DNA of 39,290 bases from Ignavibacteriaceae bacterium (GTDB lineage: Bacteria > Bacteroidota > Ignavibacteria > Ignavibacteriales > Ignavibacteriaceae). The notes under the pieces are model-generated. The model worked only from the letters and a program-made list of their open reading frames with translations, had not been told where the DNA came from and made no database searches. The translations under genes were made by a program, and so were the position numbers. Below, piece by piece: positions 7,427 to 35,018 of the stretch. The DNA is taken from contig JACZKK010000197.1 in NCBI GenBank assembly GCA_014860115.1, positions 1-39,290 on the forward strand, given 5' to 3'. The first letter of the stretch is position 1; each line of letters begins with the position of its first letter.

Positions 7427-7434
7427 TCTATTTA

Positions 7435-12573: not shown

Positions 12574-12574
12574 A

Positions 12575-12694: not shown

Positions 12695-12741
12695 AACTTT
12701 AAAAACTATTAAATCAAATATTAACTAAAGGAATAAATATC

Positions 12742-14253: not shown

Positions 14254-14282
14254 TAATTAATTTTATCAATCCGGAGGGCGAA

Positions 14283-14990: not shown

Positions 14991-15021
14991 TAAGTCGCTA
15001 ATTAGGCAATGAATATTATAC

Positions 15022-15045
15022 TTGCCAATTACAAATCGATTGTTT
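15022..15045. repeat. 24-bp repeat, copy 2
   Basis: Matches 7435-7458 with one difference (C to T in the middle). It lies in the 199-base gap before the sialidase-like gene. The rest of that gap shows no clear copy of the structured leader seen elsewhere. Confidence 0.5.
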
Positions 15046-15189
15046 AAAACATCTCATAAGTGGTTAAAGTATTACCCAGGTTGATTTGGCATTGCTTGAG
15101 TGTTCAATTTACCGCTGGATATATGTAAGTTTAAACACTATCAAAATAAAAATTTGCGAACCTCTTAAATCTATTACAGGAGATTTATT

Positions 15190-17160: not shown

Positions 17161-17208
17161 TTAGTAGTTGGTATTTAGAATTTAGTCGGGGCGTGATTTA
17201 TCACGCCC
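17157..17208. repeat. REP-like element, second copy (GGGCGTGA hairpin)
   Basis: TAGTTAGTAGTTGG and related units lead to GGGCGTGA-TTTA-TCACGCCC (17189-17208), a perfect 8-bp stem. It overlaps the stop codon of the sialidase-like gene and touches the 3' end of the convergent toxin pseudogene, so it may act as a bidirectional terminator. Compare 7372-7426. Confidence 0.6.
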
Positions 17209-17501
17209 TAGATTCTTTCAGCCCAATATAATGGTTCCCTTTTCTGATGCATCACTGCAAGAATATAAATAACATTTCCGTCCACACGATACAAGATAGA
17301 AAAAGGAAACTTTATGATTACAGCTTTGCGAACATTTTGTTTTGTAACTGGATATGCTAGCGGGTTAGTTTTAATTATGTTTAAACATCTTTCTATTTCA
17401 GTAACAAATTTTTCTCCGAGTCCAAAAACCAAATCATCCTAATAGTCCTTTACCTCCAGAAACTCTTTGCCTGCTAAATCGTGAAAAAGAATCTTGATCA
17501 C
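17208..17501 (-). pseudogene. RelE/ParE-type toxin interrupted by an amber codon
   Basis: A GTG start at 17501 overlaps the antitoxin stop (GTGA), the usual coupling in such pairs. The frame reads VIKILFHDLAGKEFLEVKDY, then TAG (17439-17441), then DDLVFGLGEKF and on to FPFSILYRV, VIYILAVMHQKREPLYW. Compared with the family pattern DYY...GLGEKF, the TAG replaces exactly one tyrosine codon, so a single base change explains it. The downstream piece is open from TTG 17432 (74 residues) but lacks the first beta-alpha element. The full product would be 97 residues. It is probably inactive unless read through or restarted. Confidence 0.75.
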
Positions 17502-17722
17502 TTATACTTTGACTTGGCTTCACGAATAATTAGTTCACTATCAATAGTAAACTTACCAGCCTTATAAATCTGATCGTACCTGCTGAGTGCTTCAGCTAGC
17601 CAGATATCTTCAACATCTGCTGATTCTTCATTTTCTAAACTATTTAAAAGCTTATATGTTACAATTGCTCTCTCTCTTGGTGTAAGCTTTAGTAGTTCAG
17701 ATTCTATTGATTTTAAGTCCAT
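17498..17722 (-). CDS. Antitoxin of a RelE/ParE-type module
   Basis: 74 residues, resembling the addiction-module component family that precedes RelE/ParE toxins: SIESELLKLTPRERAIVTYKLLNSL, then an acidic stretch ENEESADVEDIWLAEALSRY, and a C-terminal toxin-contacting segment. It would neutralise the toxin by direct binding. The gene is intact and overlaps the toxin by 4 bases. With the toxin carrying a nonsense codon, the antitoxin is under no obvious selection here, suggesting recent inactivation or a solitary antitoxin role. Confidence 0.8.
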   Translation of the reverse strand: MDLKSIESELLKLTPRERAIVTYKLLNSLENEESADVEDIWLAEALSRYDQIYKAGKFTIDSELIIREAKSKYK

Positions 17723-17853
17723 GTTTATCCCATCAGTTTTTATACAAATATATGAGTTGATGTACTAATCAGCAATTTATTTAATCAATTTCTGTGGATG
17801 TGAGTGTATATGAAAAAAATATTCACACATATAAAGTGTCCATACAGGTGAAG

Positions 17854-19143
<1,290 letters not shown>

Positions 19144-19226: not shown

Positions 19227-19568
19227 TTATTTTGGTAATGATTCGATTGCTTTATCAACAGATTCGTAGTGTTCAAAAATTGTTATCAGCTTAGTTATTA
19301 TGAGCAAGCTTTCAATTTTATCTGTAACATTCGCAAGCTTGTAAAAACCATTTGCCTTTTTCATTGTTGTTAAACCGCCAATTAACATACCTAGTCCGGA
19401 GCTGTTCATAAACTTAACATCGCTGAGATCTATGATTACTCTTATCTTATTTTCCTCAATTAATTTGTGCAATAAATCGTTGAATTCTTTGGTGTCATCA
19501 CCGCCCATCACATTTCCTTTTAATTCAACTATTACGGCTCCATATTTTTCGGTGGTTTTGATTTTCAT
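19227..19568 (-). CDS. STAS-domain anti-sigma factor antagonist
   Basis: 113 residues, a single STAS domain: GAVIVELKGNVMGGDD, VIIDLSDVKFMNSSGLGML, then a helix GGLTTMKKANG and a C-terminal helix. The serine pair in MNSSGLG includes the residue phosphorylated by RsbW-type kinases in SpoIIAA/RsbV. It is divergent from the ECF sigma gene (143-base gap) and about 4.5 kb from a second STAS gene and its kinase, so it may be another client of the same switch. AAGGAG precedes the ATG. A terminator follows. Confidence 0.92.
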   Translation of the reverse strand: MKIKTTEKYGAVIVELKGNVMGGDDTKEFNDLLHKLIEENKIRVIIDLSDVKFMNSSGLGMLIGGLTTMKKANGFYKLANVTDKIESLLIITKLITIFEHYESVDKAIESLPK

Positions 19569-19679: not shown

Positions 19680-19706
19680 GGAACAACACTGTAAATATTA
19701 CGTCTA
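19680..19706 (+). promoter_or_regulatory. ECF-type promoter, probably autoregulatory
   Basis: GGAAC (19680-19684) and CGTCTA (19701-19706) are separated by 16 bp, the classic ECF -35/-10 arrangement, directly upstream of an ECF sigma gene. The -10 ends only 5 bases before the ATG at 19712, so transcription would start at or within a couple of bases of the start codon, giving a leaderless message. Confidence 0.55.
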
Positions 19707-19711
19707 AAAAA

Positions 19712-20308
19712 ATGATTTCAAAAGAAGAAGAAAAGGACTTGCAGCAGCCTCAAATACTCTCAATAGATGATGATTATTCGATAATCAGGCAATTTGTTGA
19801 TGGTGATAAGTCTGCTTTTCAGATACTTATTAAAAGACATAAAGAAAAAGTAAGGAACATAATTTATATAACTATGAACAACAGTGCACTGGTTGATGAC
19901 ATCGCTCAGGACGTTTTCATTACAGTCTATAGAAATCTGAAGCATTTCAGGTTTGAGTCGCAGTTTACTACATGGCTTTACAGGATTACAGTTAACAGGT
20001 GCAAAGATTATTTAAGAAAGATGAACGTCAGAAAAATATTTTTCCCTATCGAAGATGGTTTCGAAGTATCTGAATACTCTTCACCTGTTGAAAATAATGA
20101 TATTTCCAGAATCGTAATGGATGCAATCTCAAAGCTGCCGGTAAAACTCAGAATGCCATTGATACTTAAAGACATCGAAGGGTTTAGTTATCAGGAAATT
20201 TCAGAAACACTGAAGTGTGAAATGGGTACGGTAAAATCAAGAATATTCAGAGGAAGAGAAAAGCTGAAAGAAATATTACAGCCGCTTGAGAAGGAGTTGA
20301 TGAATTGA
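19712..20308 (+). CDS. ECF-family RNA polymerase sigma factor
   Basis: 198 residues. Region 2 is IIRQFVDGDKSAFQILIKRH...DDIAQDVFITVYRNL with FTTWLYRITVNRCKDYLRK; region 4 is AISKLPVKLRMPLILKDIEGFSYQEISETLKCEMGTVKSRIFRGREKL. No sigma 1.1 or 3 domains, as expected for group 4. There is a 25-residue acidic N-terminal extension. No Shine-Dalgarno is visible before the ATG, consistent with the leaderless arrangement suggested by the promoter. The stop overlaps the start of the anti-sigma gene by 4 bases (TTGA), so the two are translationally coupled. Confidence 0.95.
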   Translation: MISKEEEKDLQQPQILSIDDDYSIIRQFVDGDKSAFQILIKRHKEKVRNIIYITMNNSALVDDIAQDVFITVYRNLKHFRFESQFTTWLYRITVNRCKDYLRKMNVRKIFFPIEDGFEVSEYSSPVENNDISRIVMDAISKLPVKLRMPLILKDIEGFSYQEISETLKCEMGTVKSRIFRGREKLKEILQPLEKELMN

Positions 20309-21840
20309 AAAAAGATTTACGAAATATGGAATTGCTCTCTGCTTATCTCGATGATGAACTGACTCAATCAGAAAAAACAGAAGTTGAGAAGCTTCTCGCC
20401 ACTTCACTTGAATTGCAAAAGAAGCTGAATGATCTGAAAAAAGTCAAACAACTTGGTAACAGGATAAAGCGAATTCCGGAATCTACTTTTTTTGAAACAC
20501 GGCTGAAGGCTGCAATTGAAGGACAAAAAAATGAACCTTCATTAATTAAGAGATGGATACCGGCGGCCGCATTAGCAGTTATTACAATTGTTATAATGTT
20601 TGTGTTAAAGTTTAACCTTGGTATAATAGATAAAATGTGGGAAGATCAAAAGGTTGCAATCGCCGGCTTCTATAAAGAAAATCTTCAACCTGTTTTACTT
20701 GCTGCTAACCTCACCAATGAAGATGTATTCAATTTTGCATTTAACAATGAGCTGCCGCTTGATAATACACGCCAGCAATATCTTCTTTTAGGATATGATG
20801 ATTCAGGAAAAGAATTTTTTGAGATTCGTTCGAGCCACGAAAGAGTGAAGAGAGAAAGTTATAATGAATTTATATCTGCAATGAATTTAGATGTTGAGCA
20901 AAAGCTAACTGTTGATTCAATCATTGGCAGCTATAGCAAAGCGCTTGAGTCACAAGTGCTTGTAAATGAAAAGAATACAATTGCAATTAATCCTAATTTA
21001 TGGAATTTAAGAAAAACCATCTTTGCTGACTTACTTGTTGCTTCCGAAAAATTAAATAAGGTAAAGTTTGATAGAATTGTCCCATCTGGAATTACTAATG
21101 CTGAAAAAATGATAGTAGTTAATACACTGGAAAAATTAAAAAATACATCCGGTGATCAATACATTTTTGTTACCCCGGATTCGATATTTGCTGAAGCATA
21201 TCAGTTTGACTCCCAGCAGTTTGAAAAAGAAATGAGAGAATTTGAGAAGCAAATGGAAATTAATGAAGAGAAAGTAAAGCAGCTTACACTTAATATCAGG
21301 TTTGACTCAACTTACAAATATTATACTGATGCTCAAAGAGTACACTCTTTCAGGATTCAGATAGACTCAAACATCTGCCGGGTTGATTTACCTGAACCGC
21401 AAATAGCAGAAATACCTATCCCCGGAATGGCAATCATAGATCCACTCGTTGAACAGGCTACGAATAACATTCATTTTTACGCTTACAAAATTCCCAAGAT
21501 TGAAAAATCAAAAACAGAAATTAAAATCGAATACTACAATGACGATTCAGTTTACAGCTACGTAGTAAACTATAATATGCTCAATATGGATTCGCTGGCC
21601 GAAGCTAACCCCGGATTGGATCTTTACAACCTTGAAAAATTAAAACCTGTCAAGCCTTCCGATGATACTATGCTAATTAAATATCAATTTAACCGTGATT
21701 ACTATAACAGATATTACTCCGATGACGAGTTCAAAAAGCAGATGGAAGAACTGCAGAAAGAACTTCAGCAAATGAGCGAAGAACTTAACAGGCAGAAAAT
21801 CAGAGTTAAGTCAGAAGTTACGAAGAGTCCTAAAAAATAG
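20305..21840 (+). CDS. Membrane anti-sigma factor, zinc-less, with large extracytoplasmic domain
   Basis: 511 residues starting with TTG, with AAGGAG at 20291. The N-terminal 60 residues resemble anti-sigma (ZAS/zf-HC2-like) domains, MELLSAYLDDELTQSEKTEVEKLL, but the H-C-C zinc ligands are absent. One transmembrane helix follows at about 86-104 (IPAAALAVITIVIMFVLKF). The remaining 400 residues are outside the cytoplasm, unrecognised, rich in charged coiled-coil stretches (FEKEMREFEKQM, and KKQMEELQKELQQMSEELNR near the end). The role is to hold the cognate ECF sigma until an envelope signal is sensed. The long sensor domain is unusual for this family. Confidence 0.8.
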   Translation: MKKDLRNMELLSAYLDDELTQSEKTEVEKLLATSLELQKKLNDLKKVKQLGNRIKRIPESTFFETRLKAAIEGQKNEPSLIKRWIPAAALAVITIVIMFVLKFNLGIIDKMWEDQKVAIAGFYKENLQPVLLAANLTNEDVFNFAFNNELPLDNTRQQYLLLGYDDSGKEFFEIRSSHERVKRESYNEFISAMNLDVEQKLTVDSIIGSYSKALESQVLVNEKNTIAINPNLWNLRKTIFADLLVASEKLNKVKFDRIVPSGITNAEKMIVVNTLEKLKNTSGDQYIFVTPDSIFAEAYQFDSQQFEKEMREFEKQMEINEEKVKQLTLNIRFDSTYKYYTDAQRVHSFRIQIDSNICRVDLPEPQIAEIPIPGMAIIDPLVEQATNNIHFYAYKIPKIEKSKTEIKIEYYNDDSVYSYVVNYNMLNMDSLAEANPGLDLYNLEKLKPVKPSDDTMLIKYQFNRDYYNRYYSDDEFKKQMEELQKELQQMSEELNRQKIRVKSEVTKSPKK

Positions 21841-22008
21841 GCTATATTGATGCCTGAGTATTAAATTTAGACTCGTTAATTTTTCAACCATCCCAAATAT
21901 TTTCCGTTCATACCTGAAATCTTTAACCATAATCCGGTTTCGCTTAATTTTCAGCAGTTGTATTTTAGACGGTAACAAATAAATTTATTTGCCAGTCAAA
22001 TTATTAAA

Positions 22009-24057
22009 ATGGTTAAAATCTCACGAAATATTGTAACCACTCAGTTGCAGCTTTTTTTTCTTGTTGCATTCTTGTTATTTATTTTCAAAATATTTTTTGG
22101 AAGCAGCGATTATGTTTATTTGAGAATTTTACTTGACCTGTTAATATCTGCCTCAATATTCTTTTTGCTTTTAGCTTTGGTAAGATTTGAAAACAGCCGT
22201 ACAACCGCCCCCTTGTCCCTGATAATGAATGTTGGAATTCTCAGTGCGATTATGTTCTTCATCATTACATTTTCCGATTATCTGATGCCGGGTATTTTTG
22301 ATAACATCAACCTCAAACTGAAAAACCCCGGTCTTGTTTACGATATTGTTTCTGTTTTTTATGTACTCGTATTTATAGGTTTTGTCTCGTACTTTTTATT
22401 AACACTCAGACATTTTTTCTTTTTGAACCAGGGAAGGAACGTCAGGATTTACTTTAATACAATGATGATCTTTTTCATTCTTGCCAGCCTTTCAGGTAAT
22501 TTTTTTCAGGCTGAAAACGTTTCGTTCCTAAGCAGCACTTTCTTAATCGTATCGGTTCTGCTGATGGTTTTTAATTCTATTCGGATCTCGTGGATTGCTT
22601 TTTTATCAAAGAAGGAAAAAATCTATTTACTGCTGCTGTCATTTGTAATAACAACTTTGTTTATTGTAAATATTAGTAATAGTTCAGGCGACAATATTCA
22701 CAGCCAGATGATAAATGCTTTCTCTCCTTCACTCAAACAGTTCAATGTAATTGTTATGGTTTATGGCTCGATTTATTTTTTAATTTTATTCTTTACAACA
22801 CTGTTTCACCTGCCAACTGCAGAAGCTTATGACAGGAAAGCCCAGGAAGTAACTTCACTTCAGTATTTCAGTAAGCTAATAACTGAAGTTCTGGACTTTA
22901 ATGATCTTGCAGAAACAGTAACTGATATTGCACAGAAGTTAAGCGGTTCAAAGGCTACTTGGATAATATGGAAGAATGGTGCAAAGCAGAATTCGTTAGC
23001 TGCGAAGAACATCGGGTTTGTAGAATCTGATAAAGTAACAAAACAGATACTCGAAAGAATCAGTTTCGAAAATCTTACGTCTACACGAACATTTAATATA
23101 AAAGAAAAAATTTCCGAAAACCCGGCTAGCAATTCACTAGCAGTCGTATCTGTATCTCCAATAAAAACCCGTGGAGATACTCAGGGAATATTGGTTGCTG
23201 CTAAAGGATCTGGCCAGATATTTACTCAGGATGATTTGAATGCAATGGAAACTTTTTCTGATTATGCTTCGGTTGCAATTGAAAATTCCAGGCTGCTCGA
23301 AGAATCGATCGAGAAAGAAAGACTTGAGAAGGAACTTGATGTAGCTAGGGAAATTCAAAGAAAAATTCTTCCACTTCAAGTACCTGTATATCCGAACTTG
23401 CAAGTTGCGTCAGTTTTTATTCCCGCTTTTGAGGTCGGTGGTGATTATTATGATTTCTTTAAGATAACTGAGACTAAGCTTGGATTTGTGATAGCAGATG
23501 TATCCGGCAAGGGAATTTCAGCTGCATTTATAATGGCTGAGGTAAAAGGAATATTTGAATCACTTTCGAAAACTATTGAAAGACCTAAAGAAATACTCAT
23601 CAAAGCAAATGAAATTTTAAAAGAAGCATTGGACAGTAAAACTTTTGTCAGCGCTGCATACGGATATTTTGATTTGGCGGAAAAGAAACTCGTATTTTCA
23701 CGGGCAGGGCACTGTCCATTATTTTTACTGAGAGGTGGCGATTCAAAACAAATCAGACCTTCAGGATTAGGATTAGGCTTAAGCGATACAGATTATTTTG
23801 AAAAGACTCTTGAAGAATACTCAATCGATCTAAATGAAAATGATACGATCGTTCTTTACACAGATGGAGTAACTGAAGCAAAGAATGAACTGCTGGAAGA
23901 TTTCGGCGATAAGCTTTTTTTGCAAGCACTTCAGTCAAACATAAATCTGACTGCAGAAGAACTTTCAAATACAATAATAAAAGAAATAACAGTTTTTTCC
24001 AGCGGTCATGAGCAGTATGATGATATAACTTTAGTTATTTTTAAGTGGCAACAATAA
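22009..24057 (+). CDS. Membrane GAF-SpoIIE (RsbU-like) serine phosphatase
   Basis: 682 residues. About 7-8 hydrophobic helices occupy residues 10-270, then a GAF domain (about 290-425), a coiled-coil linker EKERLEKELDVAREIQRKILP, and a PP2C/SpoIIE phosphatase domain. Metal ligands are visible: GGDYYD (D479), ADVSGKG (D497), YTDGVTEA (D619) and YDDIT (D671/D672). It is expected to dephosphorylate phospho-STAS proteins, releasing the RsbW-type kinase from its target. It is the first gene of five closely spaced genes (22009-29117), preceded by a 168-base gap in which I see no clear motif. Confidence 0.93.
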   Translation: MVKISRNIVTTQLQLFFLVAFLLFIFKIFFGSSDYVYLRILLDLLISASIFFLLLALVRFENSRTTAPLSLIMNVGILSAIMFFIITFSDYLMPGIFDNINLKLKNPGLVYDIVSVFYVLVFIGFVSYFLLTLRHFFFLNQGRNVRIYFNTMMIFFILASLSGNFFQAENVSFLSSTFLIVSVLLMVFNSIRISWIAFLSKKEKIYLLLLSFVITTLFIVNISNSSGDNIHSQMINAFSPSLKQFNVIVMVYGSIYFLILFFTTLFHLPTAEAYDRKAQEVTSLQYFSKLITEVLDFNDLAETVTDIAQKLSGSKATWIIWKNGAKQNSLAAKNIGFVESDKVTKQILERISFENLTSTRTFNIKEKISENPASNSLAVVSVSPIKTRGDTQGILVAAKGSGQIFTQDDLNAMETFSDYASVAIENSRLLEESIEKERLEKELDVAREIQRKILPLQVPVYPNLQVASVFIPAFEVGGDYYDFFKITETKLGFVIADVSGKGISAAFIMAEVKGIFESLSKTIERPKEILIKANEILKEALDSKTFVSAAYGYFDLAEKKLVFSRAGHCPLFLLRGGDSKQIRPSGLGLGLSDTDYFEKTLEEYSIDLNENDTIVLYTDGVTEAKNELLEDFGDKLFLQALQSNINLTAEELSNTIIKEITVFSSGHEQYDDITLVIFKWQQ

Positions 24058-24079
24058 TTAAAATTTTTGGAGTATAAGG

Positions 24080-24430
24080 ATGGCAGAATTTAGTACATCA
24101 GTAAGAGAAAACGGGGATATTAGTATTATTAATCTCAAGGGCTTCCTTGATGCGCACACTGCGCCGACTCTTGAGAGTAATTTTACTCAGCTGATAAATG
24201 ATAGCAAATTTAAAATAGTAGTAAACTTTGAAAACCTTGCCTACATAAGCAGTGCAGGTTTGGGGGTTTTTATGGCATACATAGAAAGCATCAGGGATAA
24301 TAAAGGTGATATTAAGCTTACTAATATGAGCGATAAGGTGTTCAACATTTTTGATTTGCTCGGGTTTCCATTGCTGTATGAAATCTACAAAAATGAAGAA
24401 GAAGCAATTAAAAAGTTTAGCGGGAGTTAA
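24080..24430 (+). CDS. STAS-domain anti-sigma factor antagonist (RsbV-like)
   Basis: 116 residues. Single STAS domain: ISIINLKGFLDAHTAPTLES, IVVNFENLAYISSAGLGVFM and a C-terminal FDLLGFPLLYEIY. The conserved serine in ISSAGLG is the expected phosphorylation site. Placed between a phosphatase and the kinase (22-base and 2-base gaps), which is the standard partner-switch order. Binding to the kinase when unphosphorylated is the family role. RBS TTGGAG-like before ATG. Confidence 0.94.
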   Translation: MAEFSTSVRENGDISIINLKGFLDAHTAPTLESNFTQLINDSKFKIVVNFENLAYISSAGLGVFMAYIESIRDNKGDIKLTNMSDKVFNIFDLLGFPLLYEIYKNEEEAIKKFSGS

Positions 24431-24432
24431 AA

Positions 24433-24873
24433 TTGTCTGTTCGTAGAAAAAATAGATCCGCTCAGCTAAAAGTAAAAAGCCGGACGGAAAACCTTTCCGA
24501 GATAAGGGATTTTGTCAGTGGAAATGCACGTACTGCGGATATTCCTGAAGCTACTGTTGAAAATATTATCCTTGCTGTCGATGAGGCTTGCACAAATATA
24601 ATTAAGCACGCATATAATTTATCTCCGGAAGGTGAAATAATAATTAAAATAGAATACGATGAAGAAAAATTTATGGTTACTATTATCGATTACGGAAAAT
24701 CTTTTGAACCTGACAGAGTTCCTCTTCCTGATCTTCAAAAATATTACCGCGAGCACAGAGTAGGTGGTCTTGGAATGTATTTGATGAAATCTTTGATGGA
24801 TGATGTGGAATATATCTCAGTTCCCGGCGAGTATAATCAGGTGCTCCTCTCAAAAAACATACGGAGCGGTTAA
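24433..24873 (+). CDS. RsbW-like anti-sigma serine kinase (HATPase)
   Basis: 146 residues, TTG start with GGGAG 8-12 bases upstream inside the end of the STAS gene. GHKL ATPase motifs are present: N-box AVDEACTNIIKHAY, G1 IIDYGKSFEP and G2 VGGLGMYLMKSLMDDVEY. This family phosphorylates STAS antagonists and binds a sigma factor or other target. No SigB/SigF-type sigma is encoded nearby; the only sigma in the window is ECF-type with its own anti-sigma, so the output target is unknown. Confidence 0.93.
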   Translation: MSVRRKNRSAQLKVKSRTENLSEIRDFVSGNARTADIPEATVENIILAVDEACTNIIKHAYNLSPEGEIIIKIEYDEEKFMVTIIDYGKSFEPDRVPLPDLQKYYREHRVGGLGMYLMKSLMDDVEYISVPGEYNQVLLSKNIRSG

Positions 24874-24877
24874 GCAA

Positions 24878-26557
24878 ATGCTGGAGGCTAAAAATTTAAA
24901 AGTAAAAAGAAACCTGACTGCTCTTATAGATTTCAGCAGGATAATTAATTCAAGCATCGATCTTGATTTCATACTTAACAATGTATTGCTTACCTGCCTT
25001 GGAAAATTTTTAGCAACACGCGGATTAATAGCTTTAAAAGAAAAAAATAAAATTGTTCTAAAAAGTTCAAAAGGGATTACCACCGAATTACTTCAGGAAT
25101 TTCCTGAACTGGAAGCCACTCGTGATTGCATTGACGATCCAAAGTTAAACTCATTTATGCACATTGCTAATTTGAAAGTAGTTGAAAAAATCAGCTCCTC
25201 TGACGATTGCATTGGATTGGTTTGTCTTGGTGAAAAACTTAACAAATCTGAATACACTGAAGACGATGTTGAGTTCCTTGGAACAATTTTGAATATCTCC
25301 GCAACTGCTGTTCAGAATTCGATGGTGATTAATGAATTGAGAAATGTAAACCGGCAGCTTGATTCAAGGGTCCAGAGGTTAAGTTCACTTTTTGAACTGA
25401 GCAAAGAGTTTGGTTCGTTTGCTGAATCATACCGGGTAGTTAAACTTCTGGTATTCTCAATACTTGGCCAATTCCTTGTTCAGAAATATGCCATTATTCT
25501 TTTTGAAAATGATGTGCCTGACATTCTTGATTCAAAATTTGATAATGAGAAATTACTTCAGTTAATAAAGAGATATGAGCTTCATAAAACCCCGGACTCG
25601 ATTAAAAAAGATTTTCTGAAAGTCAATCACAATGAGCTTCTGGAACTTGGAGTTGAGTTGATTGTACCGATGCAGCTTCAGAACAAAACGCGTGGAATAA
25701 TTTTGCTTGGCAGCAGGGCAGGTAACAGAGATTTTTTTAACAGCGATATTGAATATATTTACTCAGTTGGAAATCTTGCAATAATTTCGCTTGAAAATAA
25801 TCGTCTCTTCCTTGAAGCTCTTGAAAAACAAAAGATGGAAGAAGACCTTTTAATTGCAAGAGACATTCAGCGAAACCTTCTTCCTCAAACTCTACCTGAA
25901 TACGACAAATATGATATTGCCGCTTTGAATGTTTCATCCAAACAAGTTGGCGGAGATTATTACGATGTAATTCCAATCGTTGACGAAAAATTTTACATTG
26001 CCATTGCTGATGTATCCGGCAAAGGTGTCCCGGCTTCTCTGATGATGGCGAATATCCAGGCTTTTCTGCAGGTCATTTGCCAGCAAGGGATGAAAATTGA
26101 TGAAGCAACTGCTATGATAAACGACCTTGTTACCGGAAATACTTCTGAAGGTAGATTTATAACTTTTTTCTGGGGATATATTAACAATAAAACCAACACT
26201 TTAACTTATGTGAATGCCGGGCACAATCCTCCGTATATACTAAGAGGTGATAAAGTTATTAAGCTGACCAAAGGCGGGATAATTTTGGGTGTTGTAAAAA
26301 CTTTTACTCCTTATATTTTTGAAGAAGTGGAGTTAAAGAAAGATGATGTGATCTTACTTTACACTGATGGTGTTTCAGAAGCTCTGAATCTTGAATTTCA
26401 AGAATACTCAGAGGAAAGATTAGAAAGGATTGCAAAAAGTCTTGTGAAAAATTCGGCCGGAGAAATATTAAACGGAATAAAAGAAGATGTGCAGATTTTT
26501 ACTCAGGGTAACACACAATCGGATGATATTACTATGATTGTAATTAAAGTGAGATAG
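24878..26557 (+). CDS. Soluble GAF-GAF-SpoIIE serine phosphatase
   Basis: 559 residues from ATG 24878; the frame is open back to 24800, but that would overlap the kinase gene, and 24878 has a GGAG upstream and starts 4 bases after its stop. No membrane helices. Two GAF-like sensor regions (about 15-155 and 170-320), coiled linker EKQKMEEDLLIARDIQRNLLP, then a PP2C/SpoIIE domain with GGDYYD (D360), ADVSGKG (D378), YTDGVSEAL and SDDITM. Cytoplasmic signal input to the same partner switch is the likely role. The ligand of the GAF domains is unknown. Confidence 0.92.
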   Translation: MLEAKNLKVKRNLTALIDFSRIINSSIDLDFILNNVLLTCLGKFLATRGLIALKEKNKIVLKSSKGITTELLQEFPELEATRDCIDDPKLNSFMHIANLKVVEKISSSDDCIGLVCLGEKLNKSEYTEDDVEFLGTILNISATAVQNSMVINELRNVNRQLDSRVQRLSSLFELSKEFGSFAESYRVVKLLVFSILGQFLVQKYAIILFENDVPDILDSKFDNEKLLQLIKRYELHKTPDSIKKDFLKVNHNELLELGVELIVPMQLQNKTRGIILLGSRAGNRDFFNSDIEYIYSVGNLAIISLENNRLFLEALEKQKMEEDLLIARDIQRNLLPQTLPEYDKYDIAALNVSSKQVGGDYYDVIPIVDEKFYIAIADVSGKGVPASLMMANIQAFLQVICQQGMKIDEATAMINDLVTGNTSEGRFITFFWGYINNKTNTLTYVNAGHNPPYILRGDKVIKLTKGGIILGVVKTFTPYIFEEVELKKDDVILLYTDGVSEALNLEFQEYSEERLERIAKSLVKNSAGEILNGIKEDVQIFTQGNTQSDDITMIVIKVR

Positions 26558-26561
26558 AATT

Positions 26562-29117
26562 ATGAGAACATTAAAATCATTATTTCTGAAATACCGCTCA
26601 CCTCTGATTACAATCTTTTCAATAATTCTTATTGGTGTAGCAGTGTTGTGCATTTATTACTCTCTTGCAGTAAGAGTAACCAGCAATGATGAATGTCTTT
26701 GGGAACCAAAAACTGTATCAAAGGATAGCATTGCAATCTTTTTTGATTTGGTTAAAGTTGATGGTGTTACCTGGAATGCGGGAATACGAGACGGCGATCA
26801 GCTTTTGGAAATAGGCGGCAAACCGCTTCAAAATACTGTTCAGGCTACAATTATTTTTAATAGTTTCAAATCCGGTGAATATGCTGAGTATAAATACGCT
26901 CGGGATGGTGAAGTCTTTACTACAAAAGTTTATGTAAAAAAGCTTATAAGTTTCGAATGGCTTGCTAGCTCAATAAGCGCTCTATTCTGGATTTTAATTG
27001 GATTCATTGTCTTAAGTGCAAAGCCTGATGGTAAAGTTCAGAAAATATTTTACACTCTTGCCGTTTTGATCGTGCTGTCATCAATGACCGTTTTGATCCC
27101 ATTTCAAACAAATTTTTTCGGCTTTTTTAAAGAGAGTACATTCCTTGCAAGTTTAATAGGAATAAGCTGGATAATTGGACTATGTTTTACTCCATTCACT
27201 TTAATTTATTTCTTTTGGATTTTTCCGAAACCCTTCCAATTTGTAGCGAAGAGATGGATAAGAAGAGTAATGTTTATAATACCGGGGATTCTTACTATCG
27301 CTTTAACTCTTCTCGCAATATTAACAATCAATTTTGGGATGGTCTATTACAGCATATTTTACAGTGCTCTTGAAAATTTCAGATATTTTTCAATGGCAGG
27401 AAATCTAACTGCATTCGTTTTTTTGATAATTCAATACCGGAGACTTAAAACTAAAGCAGAAAAAAAACCTTTAATGCTTTTCATCATTGCTTTTATATTT
27501 ACAATAGTTATACCTGTTTATATTGGTCGAATTGCACCTGCAATATCAGATACAATATTTAATTCCCCTGAATACTACACGCCAATAATTTTAATAGTAA
27601 TTGTTCCCTTAATATTCGCATACTCAATCTTTAAATACCAGCTGATGGATGTAAGCGTTGTAGTTAAGAACACAATAATTTATGGAACAGCCACAGTAAC
27701 AGTAGCGGCAATCTATTTTTTTGTTATCTATGTTGCCGGGCAGAGCATCAGTTCATTTTTTGGTGTTGAGAACCAGGGAATCATTGCAGGAATTTTCTTT
27801 ATAATTTTTGCACTTGTCTTTCAGTCTTCAAAAAACAGGTTTCAGGATTTTCTTACAAAAAGATTTTATCCTGAACAATTTGCTTCTCAGAAAGTGTTAA
27901 TTGATTTAAGCAATGAGCTTTCAACTGTTGTAGGGCTGGATAATATTCTTCAATTGATGAAAAAAACTTTCGTTGATGCACTCAAGATAAAAACCTTCGG
28001 AATAATGATGCGGGATAAGGATGGAAATTTAGCACTGGTAGATAGTGTTGGTATGAACAATGACAAATGCCTGATAACTGAGTCACGGATCATTCAATTC
28101 TTAAAAGATAAATATCTTATCACAAAATACCCTTCGATTGAACAGTCAGATTATAAAGTTGTATTTCCTGATGACAAAGCTGAACGTCTGGTCTCTGAAG
28201 GAGTTTACACAATCATTCCGATGCTGGTAAAATCCAAAATTGTCGGGCTGCTTCTATTTGGACTCAAGCACTCGGGTTCGCATTTTGCGGGCAAAGATCT
28301 TGAACTATTATGGGCTGCTGCTAACCAGGCTGCAATTTCAATTGAGAATGCTCGTCTCTACAAATCTGAAGTTGAAAAACAAAAGATTGAGAGAGACCTC
28401 GACCTTGCAAGAAAAATTCAGCAGGGACTTCTCCCTCAGTGCATACCAGATATGAGTGGATTGGATATTTGCGGTGAGATGATTCCGGCGATGCAGGTTG
28501 GCGGTGATTATTTTGACCTGATACAGGTTTCTTATTCAAAATTATTCGTTGTTGTTGGTGATGTTTCCGGTAAAGGCCTTTCTGCATCACTTTATATGAC
28601 CAAACTGCAGACTATGATAAAGCTTAGCTGTATGGATAATAAATCGCCAAAAGAAATTCTGGTTGACATCAATAAGAGAATTTACGACGAACTGGACAGG
28701 AACTGGTTTGTAACTATTACACTCGCATTGTTTGATATGGAAACTAACAAGCTTACGTTTTGCCGTGCAGGACATATGCCTGTGTTGCAGGCAACAAACG
28801 GTACTGTGCAGGCTTACAGAACACAGGGTCTTGGTGTTGGAATGGAAAAAGGAATAGTCTTCGAAAAATCTCTCCTTGAAGAAGTGGTTAACATTGCATC
28901 TGGGCAAACCTATGCGTTCTTTACAGATGGGGTAACAGAAGCAATGAATGAACGCAACGAATTTTTCGGTGATGATAATCTTAATTCAATTTTAAAAAAC
29001 AAAACCAACTCACGTTCAGCGGAGATAGTGAACGAGATCTGGTCCTCAATTAAATCCTTCCGTGGTACTGCTGAAGTTAATGATGATATGACAATGGTTG
29101 TGGTGAAGGTGAAGTGA
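26562..29117 (+). CDS. PDZ-membrane-GAF-SpoIIE serine phosphatase
   Basis: 851 residues. One N-terminal helix, then a PDZ-like domain outside the membrane (about 50-125: VDGVTWNAGIRDGDQLLEIGG), then about 8 further helices (125-430), a GAF domain (about 445-600), coiled linker EKQKIERDLDLARKIQQGLLP and the PP2C/SpoIIE domain with GGDYFD (D649), GDVSGKG (D667), FTDGVTEAM and NDDMT. The PDZ at the N-terminus suggests sensing of peptide C-termini or misfolded envelope proteins. It starts 4 bases after the preceding gene and ends the five-gene cluster. Confidence 0.92.
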   Translation: MRTLKSLFLKYRSPLITIFSIILIGVAVLCIYYSLAVRVTSNDECLWEPKTVSKDSIAIFFDLVKVDGVTWNAGIRDGDQLLEIGGKPLQNTVQATIIFNSFKSGEYAEYKYARDGEVFTTKVYVKKLISFEWLASSISALFWILIGFIVLSAKPDGKVQKIFYTLAVLIVLSSMTVLIPFQTNFFGFFKESTFLASLIGISWIIGLCFTPFTLIYFFWIFPKPFQFVAKRWIRRVMFIIPGILTIALTLLAILTINFGMVYYSIFYSALENFRYFSMAGNLTAFVFLIIQYRRLKTKAEKKPLMLFIIAFIFTIVIPVYIGRIAPAISDTIFNSPEYYTPIILIVIVPLIFAYSIFKYQLMDVSVVVKNTIIYGTATVTVAAIYFFVIYVAGQSISSFFGVENQGIIAGIFFIIFALVFQSSKNRFQDFLTKRFYPEQFASQKVLIDLSNELSTVVGLDNILQLMKKTFVDALKIKTFGIMMRDKDGNLALVDSVGMNNDKCLITESRIIQFLKDKYLITKYPSIEQSDYKVVFPDDKAERLVSEGVYTIIPMLVKSKIVGLLLFGLKHSGSHFAGKDLELLWAAANQAAISIENARLYKSEVEKQKIERDLDLARKIQQGLLPQCIPDMSGLDICGEMIPAMQVGGDYFDLIQVSYSKLFVVVGDVSGKGLSASLYMTKLQTMIKLSCMDNKSPKEILVDINKRIYDELDRNWFVTITLALFDMETNKLTFCRAGHMPVLQATNGTVQAYRTQGLGVGMEKGIVFEKSLLEEVVNIASGQTYAFFTDGVTEAMNERNEFFGDDNLNSILKNKTNSRSAEIVNEIWSSIKSFRGTAEVNDDMTMVVVKVK

Positions 29118-29296: not shown

Positions 29297-29303
29297 AAAA
29301 TTG

Positions 29304-30449
29304 ATGAAAATTGAAGAATTCAAAGCTGGGCACTATCAGCAGGAATACAAGTACAAAATCTTTATCCCAAATAAAGTAAACCACGAATGGGTATGGAGCA
29401 ATGCAAAGATAAATTCACTTTTATCGGAAGCAAATCTGAGCCTTGGCAACCTGAATGCGTTTTCACTTTACGTTCCGGATATTGATTTATTTATAAAAAT
29501 GCATATGGTAAAAGAAGCAACCAAGTCCAGCCAGATTGAAGGTACACGTACTGAAATGGAAGAAGTATTATTAAAGGATGAAGATATTCTGCCGGAAAAA
29601 AGAGGCGATTGGAAAGAAGTTCAGAATTACATTGAAGCGATGAACTACTCAATCTCAAAACTGAAAACACTTCCTTTATCAACAAGATTGTTAAAAGAAT
29701 CTCATAAAATATTAATGCAGGGAGTTAGAGGAGAAAAGAAAACTCCGGGTGAATTCAGAACGAGTCAGAACTGGATTGGCGGGGCAACGATTAATGATGC
29801 TGTATTTATTCCGCCACCACACACGCAGATAAATGAATTGATGGGTGACCTGGAAAATTTTCTGTATAATCAAAATATAAATGTGCCCTCCTTGATCAAA
29901 ACGGCAATCGGTCACTACCAATTCGAAACCATTCACCCGTTTCTGGATGGCAATGGAAGAATCGGAAGATTACTGATTACTTTGCAGTTAGTTGGTTCGG
30001 GCGTGCTGTCAAAACCAACTCTCTATCTCTCGGATTATTTTGAAAAGCACAGAACAATTTATTACGATAATCTTAACGTGGTAAGAGTTAAGAACGATCT
30101 TGCACAATGGATAAAGTTCTTTCTTGTTGCAGTAATTGAAACTAGCAAGCGAGGAACAGAAACATTTCAGGGAATATTAAAATTAAAAGATAAAATTGAG
30201 AATGAGAAAATAGTCAAGCTGGGGAAAAAGCTTTCGAAAGCAAAACAACTGATGAATAAACTTTATTCGAATCCGATGATTAATTCTAATGATGTAAAAG
30301 AATTTCTTAGAGTTGCTCCAGCCACTGCAAATTCTCTGATTCAGGATTTTATTAATCTTGGGATCCTAAAAGAGATTACCGGAGGTAAGAGATATCGTCT
30401 ATTTAGTTTTGAAGATTATCTGAATCTCTTTACTAAAAATAATTTTTAA
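29304..30449 (+). CDS. Fic-domain protein (AMPylase-type) with N-terminal inhibitory motif
   Basis: 381 residues from ATG 29304. The Fic active loop is HPFLDGNGRIGR, with the catalytic His at residue 211, matching HPFx(D/E)GNGRxxR. An inhibitory motif SSQIEG in the N-terminal part matches (S/T)xxxE(G/N), so this is an intramolecularly inhibited class Fic. The C-terminus carries a winged-helix-like region (SNDVKEFLRVAPATANSLI, LGILKEITGGKRYRLF). The family transfers AMP from ATP to hydroxyl groups of target proteins. The gene is followed by debris of restriction-modification genes, a locus type in which such Fic genes are often embedded. Confidence 0.93.
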   Translation: MKIEEFKAGHYQQEYKYKIFIPNKVNHEWVWSNAKINSLLSEANLSLGNLNAFSLYVPDIDLFIKMHMVKEATKSSQIEGTRTEMEEVLLKDEDILPEKRGDWKEVQNYIEAMNYSISKLKTLPLSTRLLKESHKILMQGVRGEKKTPGEFRTSQNWIGGATINDAVFIPPPHTQINELMGDLENFLYNQNINVPSLIKTAIGHYQFETIHPFLDGNGRIGRLLITLQLVGSGVLSKPTLYLSDYFEKHRTIYYDNLNVVRVKNDLAQWIKFFLVAVIETSKRGTETFQGILKLKDKIENEKIVKLGKKLSKAKQLMNKLYSNPMINSNDVKEFLRVAPATANSLIQDFINLGILKEITGGKRYRLFSFEDYLNLFTKNNF

Positions 30450-30789: not shown

Positions 30790-30995
30790 CATTTAAACAT
30801 TTTATTGAATAAATAACTGCTGCTTACTTATTACTTGATTAAGAGCAAGTCTAAGATGCTAAAAATCTTCTCAGGGGACATACCGATATTTATTTCATTC
30901 AAAACACTCCTGTGCTCTGTAATAATTTGTAGGCATTCATTTTTCAATTAACTACATGCTGTTTGATACACAGTAAAAAAATCGTGGAGGTAATA

Positions 30996-33900
30996 ATGGA
31001 AAAAAAAATTTTCCAGCTTTTCGCAAGCAGTTTATATAAACTGTTAGTTTTATTTGCCGCGTTTTCATTTTCAAATATGAATTTGCATGCGCAGGTAATC
31101 AATTATTCCGATGGCTGGGGTACTCAGGGTTTCAGCACTGAAACTGAGAATGCATCGGGAGTAAAATTAAATTTTTCAATTCATCAATTTGAAATGCAGG
31201 AAGTAAATGTTAACGGTACTACGATGAAAACAGTTCATATCCCCGGTGTTTTCCTGCCTAATGATGAGGGTGCGCCAGATCTTGCAGGCACCTCGAGATT
31301 CATTGCAATACCTCAAGGTGCAAGAGCAAGCTTTAGGGTAACTGCAGCAAGAACCGAGTCATTTGAAAATATTGAAGTCGCACCTGCGTTCCGTATCCCA
31401 AAAGGAAATGAGGACGGTCCTCTCAGCTACATCAGGGATGATAGAATTTATAATACGGATGCATTTTATCCCGCTGAGCCTGTTTTGATTTCTGAGCCAA
31501 CTGAAATAAGAGGCGTAGATGTTGTTCAGCTTGGAATTACTCCCTTTCAATACAATCCTGTTACAAAGGAGCTGATTGTCTACCGGGACATAAAAGTTGA
31601 GGTTGATTTCATAGGAGGTACTGGAAACTTCGGTGATAATCGTTTGCGAAGCCGATGGTTTGATCCGATCCTGGATAACATTCTCATAAATTATAAATCA
31701 TTACCTGAAGTGGAATATCAATTTCAATCGGATGCTTTGACAGAAGATTTCGAATACATAATTATTTGTCCAAACGATGCAACATTTCTAGCCTGGGCGG
31801 ATTCAATAAAACAATTCAGAACTTTACAGGGAATAAGAACAGGTATAGTTACAACTACACAAATAGGTGGAAACAATTCTACTCAGATAGAGAATTACAT
31901 TAATAATGCTTACAACACCTGGAATATTCCTCCTGTGGCAGTGTTGTTTTTAGGTGACTATGGGACTACCGGAAACACAGTGCATAGTCCCACATGGAAT
32001 AGTTACTGTATTTCAGATCATATTTATGCAGATGTTAATGGTAACAACATGGCTGATATTATCACGGCACGTATGACTGCTCAGAATGCAACTCACTTGC
32101 AAACGATGATAAATAAATTTTTAGGCTATGAACGGACTCCTCCAACGAATCCTAATTACTATAACAAGCCAATTACTGCAATGGGCTGGCAGACGGAGAG
32201 ATGGTTCCAGATCTGTTCAGAAACAATTAACGGATTCTGGGAACATGAATTGGGAAAAACCCCTGTAAGAGAAAATGCTATTTACATTGGAACACCGCCG
32301 TTTACTAGTTGGTCATCTAACCAGAATACAAGCATGGTTGTGAACTATTTTGGACCTAACGGAGTAGGTTACATTCCGGCGACTGCACTTCACTTAACTG
32401 ATTGGGGAGGAAGTGCTACTCGGATAAATAACGATATAAATAGTGGTGCCTTTATGATTCAGCACCGCGACCATGGCGGCGAAACAGGCTGGGGTGAACC
32501 TGCATACAGCAATTCTAGTTTATCAGGGCTAAACAATAATGATTTAGTCTTTGTAATGTCGATTAATTGTCTGACCGGAAAATTCAACTGGAGCGGTGAA
32601 TGTTTTGCAGAAGCTTTTCACCGTCATCAAAAAGGCGCACTCGGGATTATCGCAGCAACCGAAGTCTCATATTCATTTGTTAACGATGCATATGTTTGGG
32701 GTATGTATGATGGGATGTGGCCTAACTTTATGCCTGATTATGGTAACCCGGGTCCTGATAGAATTCTTCCGGCATTCGGAAATGTTACTGGTAAATATTT
32801 TCTGCAATACTCCAACTGGCCATACAACACAAGCAACAAGATGGTTACATATTATCTTTTCCATCATCATGGTGATGCTTTTTCTACAGTTTATACTGAG
32901 ATGCCGCAGAATCTTACCGTGACTCACGATCCCGTTATTGTAAGCGGACTGCCGCAGTATGTTGTTACTGCAGATAACTATTCACTTATTTCTCTAACAC
33001 TTAACGGCGAGATAATCGGAGTTGCTGAGGGAACCGGTGCTCCTGTTACAATCACAATTCCATTTATAACTCCGGCGAACACAGTTGTGCTTACAGTTAC
33101 AAAGCAAAACTATTACAGATACACAGCAAATATTCCTGTTGTTCCTGCCAGTGGTGCTTATGTAGTTGCAGATTCATGTATAATCAATGATGCTTCCGGT
33201 AACGGAAATGGTCTTCTTGATTATGGTGAATCTCCATTATTATCTATCAGAGTTAGAAATGTTGGAGTAGCGAATGCAAGCAATGTTAATGTGAAATTGC
33301 GAAGCGAGGATAGTTATGTTATAATTACTGATTCAACTGAATTTTACGGAAACATCTTAGCTGGCGAACAAAAATTAATTAACAATGGATTCGCAATTAG
33401 TGTTGATCCACTCGTTCCGGATGGTCACTTTATTAATTTCCAGGTTGCTGCTGCTGATGGTGTCAATAACTGGACTAGTAATTTTTCGCTGCAGGCACAT
33501 GCGCCTTCACTAGCTCTTGGTACATTCAGTGTTTCTGATCCACTAGGGAACAATAATAATGCACTCGATCCCGGTGAGACTGCTGATGTGATTATCGAAA
33601 TTAAAAATGATGGTTCTTCCGGTGCGGTTAGTGTAATTGGCGAATTACTCTCAAGCGATCCATACATTACCATAAATACAAGTTCTCAAGCTTATGGTAA
33701 TATTGGAGCTGGTGGTGCCATAACGAAGTCATTCAGTGTCACCGCTGGAGCCAGCACTCCAACCGGTCATTCTGCTGATTTCAATTTTAATATTACAGCA
33801 ACACCCGGATTAACAGCCAGTGGAAGTTTCTATCTCATCGTTGGACAAATTCCGGCACTGATACTTTGTATGGACACAAACCATAACTCTAGTCCGGCCA

Positions 33901-35018
33901 TCCAGGCAGCACTGGATTCCAACAACGTGACTTATGATTATTCAATGACTTTCCCTGCTGATCTAAGTCTGTATAGATCTATCTTTATCTGTTTGGGAAT
34001 TTACAGCAGCAACTACGAACTTAGTTCAACTGATGGACAACAGTTAGCAGATTATCTTAATAATGGTGGAATGATTTATATGGAAGGCGGCGATACCTGG
34101 TATTATGATACCCAAACTGCTGTGCATCCAATGTTTAACATAAATGGAACTGCTGATGGCAGCGGTGACCTTGGAACAATTCTCGGACAAACCGGCACTT
34201 TTGCAGAGGGAATGACCTTCACATATACAGGAGAGAATTCCTGGATTGATCATCTTGCAAATATTCCACCGGCTGTGTTAATCTTTAAAAACCAGACGCC
34301 TGAATATGGTTGTGCAGTTGCATATAATGCAGGAACATATAAAACTATCGGTGCGTCTTTTGAGTTTGGCGGATTAAGCAATGGAACAGCACCGTCAAAC
34401 AGAAAAGTATTAATGCAAAAAATAGTTGAGTTCTTTGGTTTAGGAATTGTACCTGTTGAACTAGTTTCTTTCAATGCAGAGATAGAGCAGAATATAATCA
34501 TGCTTAAATGGGAAACAGCAACTGAAACTAATAACCAGGCATTTATGATTGAGCGAAGCAGTGATAATTTTAATTTTGACAAGATTGGTGAGATTGAAGG
34601 AAAAGGTACTACAACTGAAAAGCAGGAATATATTTTCAGAGATGCAAGTATTTCTTCCGGCAAAGGCAAAGTCTATTACAGATTAAGACAAGTTGACTTT
34701 GATGGAACTGAAAATCTTTCAGATGTTATTGAAGTAGATTACTCAATGATACCAACAGTGTTTAATCTTTCACAGAACTATCCGAATCCATTTAATCCAA
34801 TGACAACGATAAGGTTTGACATTCCGAATGAAGTAAAAGTAACTTTGAAAATGTATGATATGCTCGGTGCAGAAGTTGAAACACTAATAGATGAAGTTAT
34901 GGAACCGGGTTATTATAAATACGAATGGAACGCTTCACAATTTTCAAGTGGAGTTTATTTCTATCGAATAACTGCGGGCAACTTTGTTAGCGCTAAAAAA
35001 CTTATCCTTCTTCGCTAG
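30996..35018 (+). CDS. Gingipain-like cysteine protease (peptidase family C25) with T9SS sorting domain
   Basis: 1340 residues from ATG 30996, chosen because GTGGAGG lies just upstream (the frame is open to a TTG at 30963). Signal peptide ends NLHAQ. A C25-type propeptide (about 30-215) precedes the caspase-like catalytic domain (about 240-620) with catalytic pair H493 (HRDHGGETGW) and C525 (MSINCLTG), 32 apart, close to the 33 in RgpB. Then come tandem Ig/CARDB-like domains (SINDASGNGNGLLDYGES and DPLGNNNNALDPGET), a glutamine-amidotransferase-like Rossmann region (about 965-1145, LADYLNNGGMIYMEGGD), an FN3-like module and the sorting domain (QNYPNPFNPMTTIRF, SGVYFYRITAGNF, KKLILLR). It should be exported by T9SS and activated outside. 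Confidence 0.92.
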   Translation: MEKKIFQLFASSLYKLLVLFAAFSFSNMNLHAQVINYSDGWGTQGFSTETENASGVKLNFSIHQFEMQEVNVNGTTMKTVHIPGVFLPNDEGAPDLAGTSRFIAIPQGARASFRVTAARTESFENIEVAPAFRIPKGNEDGPLSYIRDDRIYNTDAFYPAEPVLISEPTEIRGVDVVQLGITPFQYNPVTKELIVYRDIKVEVDFIGGTGNFGDNRLRSRWFDPILDNILINYKSLPEVEYQFQSDALTEDFEYIIICPNDATFLAWADSIKQFRTLQGIRTGIVTTTQIGGNNSTQIENYINNAYNTWNIPPVAVLFLGDYGTTGNTVHSPTWNSYCISDHIYADVNGNNMADIITARMTAQNATHLQTMINKFLGYERTPPTNPNYYNKPITAMGWQTERWFQICSETINGFWEHELGKTPVRENAIYIGTPPFTSWSSNQNTSMVVNYFGPNGVGYIPATALHLTDWGGSATRINNDINSGAFMIQHRDHGGETGWGEPAYSNSSLSGLNNNDLVFVMSINCLTGKFNWSGECFAEAFHRHQKGALGIIAATEVSYSFVNDAYVWGMYDGMWPNFMPDYGNPGPDRILPAFGNVTGKYFLQYSNWPYNTSNKMVTYYLFHHHGDAFSTVYTEMPQNLTVTHDPVIVSGLPQYVVTADNYSLISLTLNGEIIGVAEGTGAPVTITIPFITPANTVVLTVTKQNYYRYTANIPVVPASGAYVVADSCIINDASGNGNGLLDYGESPLLSIRVRNVGVANASNVNVKLRSEDSYVIITDSTEFYGNILAGEQKLINNGFAISVDPLVPDGHFINFQVAAADGVNNWTSNFSLQAHAPSLALGTFSVSDPLGNNNNALDPGETADVIIEIKNDGSSGAVSVIGELLSSDPYITINTSSQAYGNIGAGGAITKSFSVTAGASTPTGHSADFNFNITATPGLTASGSFYLIVGQIPALILCMDTNHNSSPAIQAALDSNNVTYDYSMTFPADLSLYRSIFICLGIYSSNYELSSTDGQQLADYLNNGGMIYMEGGDTWYYDTQTAVHPMFNINGTADGSGDLGTILGQTGTFAEGMTFTYTGENSWIDHLANIPPAVLIFKNQTPEYGCAVAYNAGTYKTIGASFEFGGLSNGTAPSNRKVLMQKIVEFFGLGIVPVELVSFNAEIEQNIIMLKWETATETNNQAFMIERSSDNFNFDKIGEIEGKGTTTEKQEYIFRDASISSGKGKVYYRLRQVDFDGTENLSDVIEVDYSMIPTVFNLSQNYPNPFNPMTTIRFDIPNEVKVTLKMYDMLGAEVETLIDEVMEPGYYKYEWNASQFSSGVYFYRITAGNFVSAKKLILLR

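Follow-up and report, generated by a model that had tools for sequence, protein, structure and literature searches.

What does a partner-switching module control when no sigma factor of the SigB or SigF type is encoded beside it? The question is raised by a stretch of 39,290 nucleotides of contig JACZKK010000197.1 from an Ignavibacteriaceae bacterium (the window in what follows, meaning the whole stretch of DNA that was analysed), which belongs to a 3.9 Mb genome that is 99% complete. In particular, a preliminary description of the window reported five adjacent genes for three SpoIIE phosphatases, one STAS protein and one RsbW-like kinase, saw no sigma target for the kinase, and suggested that the kinase may have an output of a different type. 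We find that a gene for an extracytoplasmic function (ECF) sigma factor lies, together with its own anti-sigma gene, 1.7 kb upstream of the start of the switch. Comparative sequence evidence makes this ECF sigma factor a strong candidate for the missing target of the switch, and throughout the order Ignavibacteriales an apparently intact STAS/kinase/phosphatase module is located downstream of an ECF gene whose ECF-type promoter is conserved. The reading that we tentatively favor, while putting it at somewhat below an even chance, is that this switch controls an ECF sigma factor, with the kinase as its anti-sigma or co-anti-sigma factor, in a locus arranged like the SigB operon but with the ECF sigma factor in SigB's place. 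The parts themselves are ordinary; their conserved combination is unusual.

The five genes of the switch are all on the forward strand, and their Pfam families agree with the preliminary description. They encode SpoIIE phosphatase A (PPA; 22009–24057; PF07228, 8.8e-43), with membrane helices, a GAF-like domain and a PP2C domain; the STAS protein, an anti-anti-sigma factor (24080–24430; STAS, 2.1e-16; TIGR00377, 71.3 bits, cut-off 53.45); the RsbW/SpoIIAB-like kinase, with a TTG start (24433–24873; PF13581 (HATPase_c_2), 2e-30); phosphatase B (PPB; 24878–26557; PF07228, 6.2e-45), a soluble protein with two GAF-like domains and a PP2C domain; and phosphatase C (PPC; 26562–29117; PF07228, 1.9e-40), in which a transmembrane segment, a PDZ-like domain, a transmembrane bundle, a GAF-like domain and a PP2C domain follow one another.

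The ECF gene (19712–20308, forward strand) encodes a protein of 198 amino acids that contains sigma regions 2 and 4 (Sigma70_r2, 2.1e-16; Sigma70_r4_2, 4.5e-16) and no region 3, and that scores 97.9 bits on TIGR02937 (cut-off 42.9). The anti-sigma gene (20305–21840, forward strand) overlaps it by 4 bases and encodes a protein of 511 amino acids with an N-terminal domain (residues 1–89), a hydrophobic stretch that forms one transmembrane helix, and a remainder that is presumably periplasmic. Matches of this protein to known models are weak and under cut-off (zf-HC2, 19.9 bits with a cut-off of 22.2; PRK13920/antisigma models, 4e-4 and 9e-4). We take the two proteins to be an ECF/membrane anti-sigma domain pair of the RseA/RsiW type, which they resemble in their overlapping genes, in the cytoplasmic N-terminal domain and in the single transmembrane helix.

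Upstream of the ECF gene is a promoter of the form GGAAC-N16-CGTCTAA (19680–19707, forward strand); promoters of this GGAAC/CGTC type are the kind that ECF sigma factors use on their own genes. Of the 57 ECF-bearing genomes of the order, 39 have the strict pattern at the ECF gene, and it is kept in both of the clades described below. Because the –10 element stops 4 bases ahead of the start codon (with similar spacing in many aligned relatives), the ECF mRNA is probably leaderless. Away from the ECF gene, the 59 genomes contain 13 sites with the strict promoter, including one at a broken ECF gene, compared to 26 matches in the reversed control; since the motif is no commoner elsewhere than in that control, the ECF sigma factor probably transcribes its own operon and, as far as the strict motif can show, little besides. 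(Note that an attempt to derive a regulon from a 9-base motif gave 5 sites in the window's own genome and 14 in the reversed control, so that no wider regulon could be named.)

We then asked how regularly the ECF gene and the switch occur together. Among 59 genomes of the order (ECF matches counted at E<=1e-60), the kinase is present in all 59 and the ECF sigma factor in 57, and the ECF sigma factor is never found without the kinase (57 of 57 genomes have both). The kinase gene lies downstream of the ECF gene, on the same strand and within 7 kb, in 54 of these 57; in the remaining 3 the two genes are on different contigs, and in one of the three (L137) the contig stops about 300 bases past the anti-sigma gene. 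The nearest named relative in the kinase search was an Ignavibacteriaceae metagenome with 90% kinase identity. When 38 named loci found with the kinase were compared, 14 had the ECF gene, a second STAS gene and purA in the same places. Of the others, one contig begins inside the membrane gene (L060), four loci have PPA, STAS and kinase genes and no ECF gene (L043, L044, L045 and L048), one locus (L047) and eleven of Balneolaceae type (L049–L059) have STAS, kinase and soluble phosphatase only, and seven are distant, at 27–38% identity (L061–L067). The second STAS gene, which encodes the protein that we call STASm (19227–19568, reverse strand; PF01740, 4.4e-13), is divergent from the ECF gene, and purA (adenylosuccinate synthase; 17854–19128, reverse strand; PF00709, 1.8e-186) serves as a syntenic anchor and probably does not belong to the switch. 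A comparison of related genomes had been suggested as a way to find a consistent extra gene, and it yields the ECF sigma factor, the membrane anti-sigma protein and the second STAS protein. The composition of the switch varies at its edges: PPC adjoins it in 8 of 9 in-order loci (the ninth ends before PPC) and in 0 of 31 loci outside the order, PPC was not seen in the in-order loci L036, L037, L038 and L041 (the sequence of L041 stops within PPB, and that of L038 a short way beyond it), and PPA is missing at the locus in one genome of the window's family (G135).

The anti-sigma domain divides the order in two. At E<=4e-20 it is found beside the ECF gene in all 26 genomes of the window's family that have the ECF sigma factor, compared to none of 31 genomes of a sister clade, where the best match anywhere in the genome is 1e-9, at a different locus. 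Ahead of the membrane helix there are 80–89 residues in the window's family (12 of 12) and 7–18 in the sister clade (18 of 20; the membrane gene is missing in 2 of these 20 loci, the first set read). Over all 45 loci read, the domain is present in 18 of 18 and 0 of 27, respectively, the latter comprising 25 with a shortened protein and 2 without the gene. (A move of the domain to another frame or open reading frame was considered and rejected, as none was found among frames of at least 25 amino acids in the 20 and 7 sister-clade loci.) In a tree of PPB (66 rows) the two domain states correspond to two sister clades, with support of 96/96 and 100/98 and a single change of state; among the named rows, Ignavibacterium and Ignavibacteriaceae are in the clade with the domain and Melioribacter in the clade without it. 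Even the shortened membrane gene is missing on three separate branches where the ECF gene is kept (L042, L107 and L109), an absence read from draft assemblies.

The sister-clade protein differs from the RseA/RsiW type in that it has no domain and usually keeps the transmembrane helix and what follows it (25 of the 27 read). Because these parts are retained, we assume that the domain-less state arose by loss; the ancestral state is not rootable, as the outgroups lack the locus. Spacing in the sister clade is short. From the ECF gene to the membrane gene it is –4 to 18 bp in 17 of 18 loci of the first set read (272 bp in G173) and, in seven further loci, 110 bp, 161 bp and, for the other five, –1 to 50 bp; from the membrane gene to PPA it is –4 to 105 bp in 17 of 18 (487 bp in G145, which has a short PPA frame). 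Where the membrane gene is missing, the gaps between the ECF gene and the phosphatase gene are 3, 29 and 151 bp.

The preliminary description was right that neither SigB nor SigF is encoded here: none was found in the window or elsewhere in its genome, and a sample of 197 genomes of the class contains none at E<=1e-40. (The control for this SigB/F/G search gave a match in 3 of 14 control genomes, including B. subtilis, one of them above the cut-off.) A SigB-type sigma factor elsewhere in the genome that binds the kinase would have made this a standard system in the terms of that description; it was sought and not found. A match to sigma region 3 at E<=0.001 is found in three proteins of the genome, and all were rejected as SigB-type factors: each has region 1.2 and scores best on RpoD models, and the three, of 284–287 amino acids (L016, L017 and L018), reach 117–128 bits on the SigB/F/G model (cut-off 234). 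Thus no cognate group-3 sigma factor was found, and the locus does not qualify as a SigB/SigF system, since its sigma factor belongs to another class. In the 197 genomes the ECF sigma factor has no competitor of the SigB/F/G kind for the kinase; the three RpoD-like sigma factors are possible alternative targets.

We reasoned that a self-activating sigma factor without a local anti-sigma domain needs a brake, and that the kinase, encoded downstream on the same strand, may be that brake. The kinase is the sole remaining protein of known anti-sigma type in the gene run of the sister clade, and this is the main argument for its acting on the ECF sigma factor; that in this sample the ECF sigma factor never occurs without the kinase, and the switch sometimes occurs without the ECF sigma factor, is an asymmetry that fits the same proposal. 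In the mechanism that we envisage, the kinase would bind the ECF sigma factor and would phosphorylate the STAS protein. Each of the three phosphatases, of which two are membrane proteins and one is cytoplasmic, could reverse this phosphorylation, and the dephosphorylated STAS protein would then draw the kinase away, freeing the ECF sigma factor to transcribe its own operon. The ECF sigma factor of the window's family would also be held by the membrane anti-sigma protein, resulting in double control, and in the sister clade, with the anti-sigma domain gone, the kinase would likely be the sole brake. The divergent STASm would likely be a second antagonist and is a candidate second substrate of the kinase. 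In the Melioribacteraceae-type clade the membrane anti-sigma domain may thus have given way to an RsbW-type kinase as the brake on the ECF sigma factor, a change of anti-sigma type on one sigma factor, with both brakes still present in the window's family; we put this at appreciably less than an even chance.

Several observations weigh against control of the ECF sigma factor by the kinase. The ECF sigma factor of the window is already paired with an anti-sigma protein. SigB and SigF, which are held by kinases of this type, possess region 3, and the ECF sigma factor has none. Two genomes of the window's family have no intact ECF gene, also have no anti-sigma gene, and keep the whole switch. (At one of these loci, L135 of G209, ECF fragments are left at 2616–2917 and the anti-sigma gene is gone; at the other, L136 of G201, both genes are gone.) The gap between the anti-sigma gene and the switch in the window's family is mostly 122–261 bp, with outliers of 374, 1314 and 2483 bp, so that the two may be transcribed separately there. 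Rate covariation does not single out the ECF sigma factor and the kinase, since their value of 0.67 falls within the 0.62–0.84 of all pairs; all gene pairs correlate after correction for purA, and hence this comparison is uninformative. Moreover, in the accessible part of a study of Rhodobacter capsulatus, a similar kinase was tested with several sigma factors, including two ECF sigma factors, and no cognate was found (PMC3999984). In our search of one open library, no paper came up on an RsbW-type kinase that demonstrably holds an ECF sigma factor, nor any that pairs Ignavibacter* with partner switching, and none of the Melioribacter sigma-factor titles was on this subject.

The distribution of the switch beyond the order weighs in the same direction. 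The class sample comprises 197 genomes, of which 165 lie outside the order. Kinase matches were counted at E<=1e-20 (164 of 197); because second kinases within the order reach 1e-29, it is safer to count only the 151 that match at E<=1e-33. Outside the order the kinase is matched in 132 of 165 genomes, 119 of them at E<=1e-33 (the weaker ones may be paralogues), and the ECF sigma factor (E<=1e-45) in 43 of 165, with a best match of 6.8e-65 compared to 9.3e-80 for the weakest match in the order. In 40 of these 43, those with both places listed, the ECF and kinase genes are on different contigs (38) or more than 150 kb apart (2). Of 31 loci read outside the order, PPA was recognised in 26 and PPB in 22, beside STAS and kinase genes, and PPC in none; any ECF gene is nearby in only 1 of the 31, at 27% identity. 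Because the switch is kept in ECF-less relatives and in genomes outside the order, the ECF sigma factor was not the only target that the kinase ever had. To judge from these comparisons the kinase has, or had, a target other than the ECF sigma factor, and the link to the ECF sigma factor appears to have been added within this order. The view that the output must be of another type, for want of a sigma factor nearby, is not supported, although the ECF-less relatives require a further target. (A class-wide target beside the module was looked for among the neighbor groups of 41 loci, of which 31 come from beyond the order, and no clear candidate emerged; recurring neighbors, named by eye, are a MATE-type transporter, an ABC ATPase, sugar transferases and leuS.) At two ECF-less loci, L043 and L045 (about 3900–7100), the second STAS gene is still near the module, beside a gene pair that in L043 is secD and secF.

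These points bear most directly on an alternative that we consider a real possibility, if a somewhat improbable one, namely that the wiring runs one way: the ECF sigma factor would sense the envelope through the membrane anti-sigma protein and would only raise expression of the switch operon, and the target of the kinase would lie elsewhere, most plausibly an RpoD-like (group 2) sigma factor. The presence of the switch without the ECF sigma factor in 2 of 59 genomes of the order, and in other families of the class, is consistent with such an arrangement, as are the three RpoD-like sigma factors with region 1.2 in the window's own genome. The scarcity of the strict motif elsewhere (13 sites against 26 in the control) makes the operon look like the main target of the ECF sigma factor, and the Chlamydia switch, as far as the source consulted goes, is reported to regulate the availability of the housekeeping sigma factor (PMC11619594). 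One-way wiring leaves unexplained, however, how the sister clade can do without the anti-sigma domain (31 of 31 genomes) and yet have the ECF sigma factor and its ECF-type promoter with no local brake.

It is unlikely, in our view, that the output is not a sigma factor at all, with the unphosphorylated STAS protein or STASm as the effector, acting on an enzyme or other protein, and the ECF gene merely a neighbor. SypA and RbaV are presumed precedents, and SiaC with a diguanylate cyclase is another (PMC8256260, PMC3999984 and PMC9239204, each available to us in part), the STAS protein is conserved above the kinase in nearly all loci, and the second STAS gene is near the module even where there is no ECF gene (L043 and L093, which are one contig; L045; and L095). 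The neighbor groups of the 41 loci, however, contain no cyclase or known effector by eye, and the linkage within the order (54 of 57), where the ECF sigma factor never occurs without the kinase, argues that the ECF gene is more than a bystander. That the ECF pair adjoins the switch by chance or hitch-hiking, merely since the region is slow to rearrange, is very unlikely: purA is also in place in all 14 named ECF-bearing loci and gene order is generally stable, but the tree shows a single change of state for the anti-sigma domain, the clade without it packs its genes closer to the switch, and the two genomes in which the ECF gene is broken or missing have also lost the anti-sigma gene, yet keep the switch.

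The proteins of the switch have the features of RsbU/V/W modules throughout: a STAS protein with a phosphosite, a GHKL kinase with an N-box, and SpoIIE phosphatases of the PP2C type with metal ligands. All three window phosphatases contain GGDY(Y/F)D, DVSGKG, TDGV.E and DD.T, which bears out the earlier statement that their metal ligands are intact. Relatives of PPA, PPB and PPC, respectively, keep the GGD motif in 86 of 89, 92 of 94 and 43 of 44 cases, the SGKG pattern in 82 of 89, 79 of 94 and 44 of 44, TDG.E in 86 of 89, 92 of 94 and 43 of 44, and DD.T in 89 of 89, 94 of 94 and 42 of 44. The phosphosite motif of the STAS protein, YISSAGLG, is kept in 107 of 108 homologues, and we take its phosphorylatable serine to be that known from RsbV; NS[ST]GLG is found at the phosphosite in 60 of 60 scanned homologues of STASm. 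The kinase profile matches the RsbW structure 6m36 at 5.7e-26, and the N-box DEA..N is present in 107 of 108 homologues (DEVCTN in the remaining one; a stricter N-box pattern is matched by 83 of 108).

The sensory inputs that had been ascribed to the phosphatases, GAF domains and a PDZ domain, are matched in the window proteins under the Pfam cut-offs, and PPB has no Pfam GAF match at E<=0.001; the PPA orthologue in L042 clears the GAF cut-off. AlphaFold models nevertheless support two GAF-like domains in PPB and a small beta domain in PPC. In the PPB model (mean predicted local distance difference test score, pLDDT, 88.8) two alpha/beta domains resemble the tandem-GAF structures PDE5A and PDE2A; in the PPC model (mean pLDDT 79.2) a beta domain between membrane helices 1 and 2 corresponds to the proposed PDZ, and is followed by a helix bundle of partly low confidence, an alpha/beta domain and the phosphatase. 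A convergence of several inputs on one STAS/kinase pair would fit this anatomy. The start of PPB, earlier placed at 24800, is most likely the ATG at 24878 (giving 559 amino acids), because in-order orthologues have about 560 amino acids and 24800 falls inside the kinase gene. In the gap before PPA (window 21860–22008) the window's family has a conserved block around CCGTTCATA, which is perhaps the switch's own promoter.

Among known systems, the one that the locus would most resemble in its working is the Bacillus SigB operon (rsbV-rsbW-sigB-rsbX, with RsbU/RsbP), which is alike in having a STAS protein, an RsbW kinase and alternative phosphatases as separate inputs. That operon has a promoter read by SigB itself, according to the part of the source available (PMC7522486), and an ECF-type promoter on the ECF gene is the counterpart here; unlike SigB, the sigma factor is an ECF sigma factor whose gene leads the gene run, and half the order has a membrane anti-sigma protein for it in addition. 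The nearest gene set that we have seen is the Bordetella btr locus, in which the ECF sigma factor BtrS, the anti-sigma factor BtrA and BtrU/BtrW/BtrV are encoded together. As described in the accessible text, type III secretion requires each of the three switch proteins, no one of which acts as a negative regulator, by a mechanism that is still unknown, and the locus differs in that it has one phosphatase and that BtrA is secreted, not a membrane protein (PMC7498569). RbaVWY of Rhodobacter capsulatus, SypA/SypE of Vibrio fischeri and SiaABCD of Pseudomonas likewise bring RsbU/V/W-like parts together in Gram-negatives. In those systems, a cognate sigma factor was not found or the STAS protein is thought to be the output, and unlike in the window the portions of their descriptions that we compared, which are the whole basis of the comparison, mention no adjacent ECF/anti-sigma pair (PMC8256260, PMC3999984, PMC9239204). 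Chlamydia RsbU/V1/V2/W also combines two STAS proteins with one kinase, and differs in that it is reported, in the part of the source at hand, to regulate the availability of housekeeping sigma66 (PMC11619594).

The window's genome has a second partner-switch cluster (L150, C136:11000-30000, about 2424–18989), with a kinase of 138, a STAS protein of 110 and a SpoIIE protein of 535 amino acids. Its large frames encode 1211, 1251, 1253 and at least 917 amino acids; the two that were scanned have Reg_prop/Y_Y_Y sensor repeats followed by a SpoIIE phosphatase. Just downstream of the switch in the window is a gene for a Fic-domain protein (29301–30449) that matches the PADLOC SoFic model at 1.2e-118. 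Por secretion C-terminal sorting domains are matched at 30963–35018, 36245–38344, 7541–8908 (just under the cut-off) and 15190–17160, and one of these four Por-type proteins is a C25-family peptidase.

Partner switches are found in many bacteria that lack SigB, and the target of several of those that have been studied is unknown, as far as the portions of the literature available to us go. For the switch of the Ignavibacteriales, comparative genomics names one candidate target, and the presence or absence of the anti-sigma domain in sister clades amounts to a natural experiment. If the kinase does hold the ECF sigma factor, then RsbW-type control would extend to ECF sigma factors, and one and the same sigma factor could move from membrane control to a phospho-switch.

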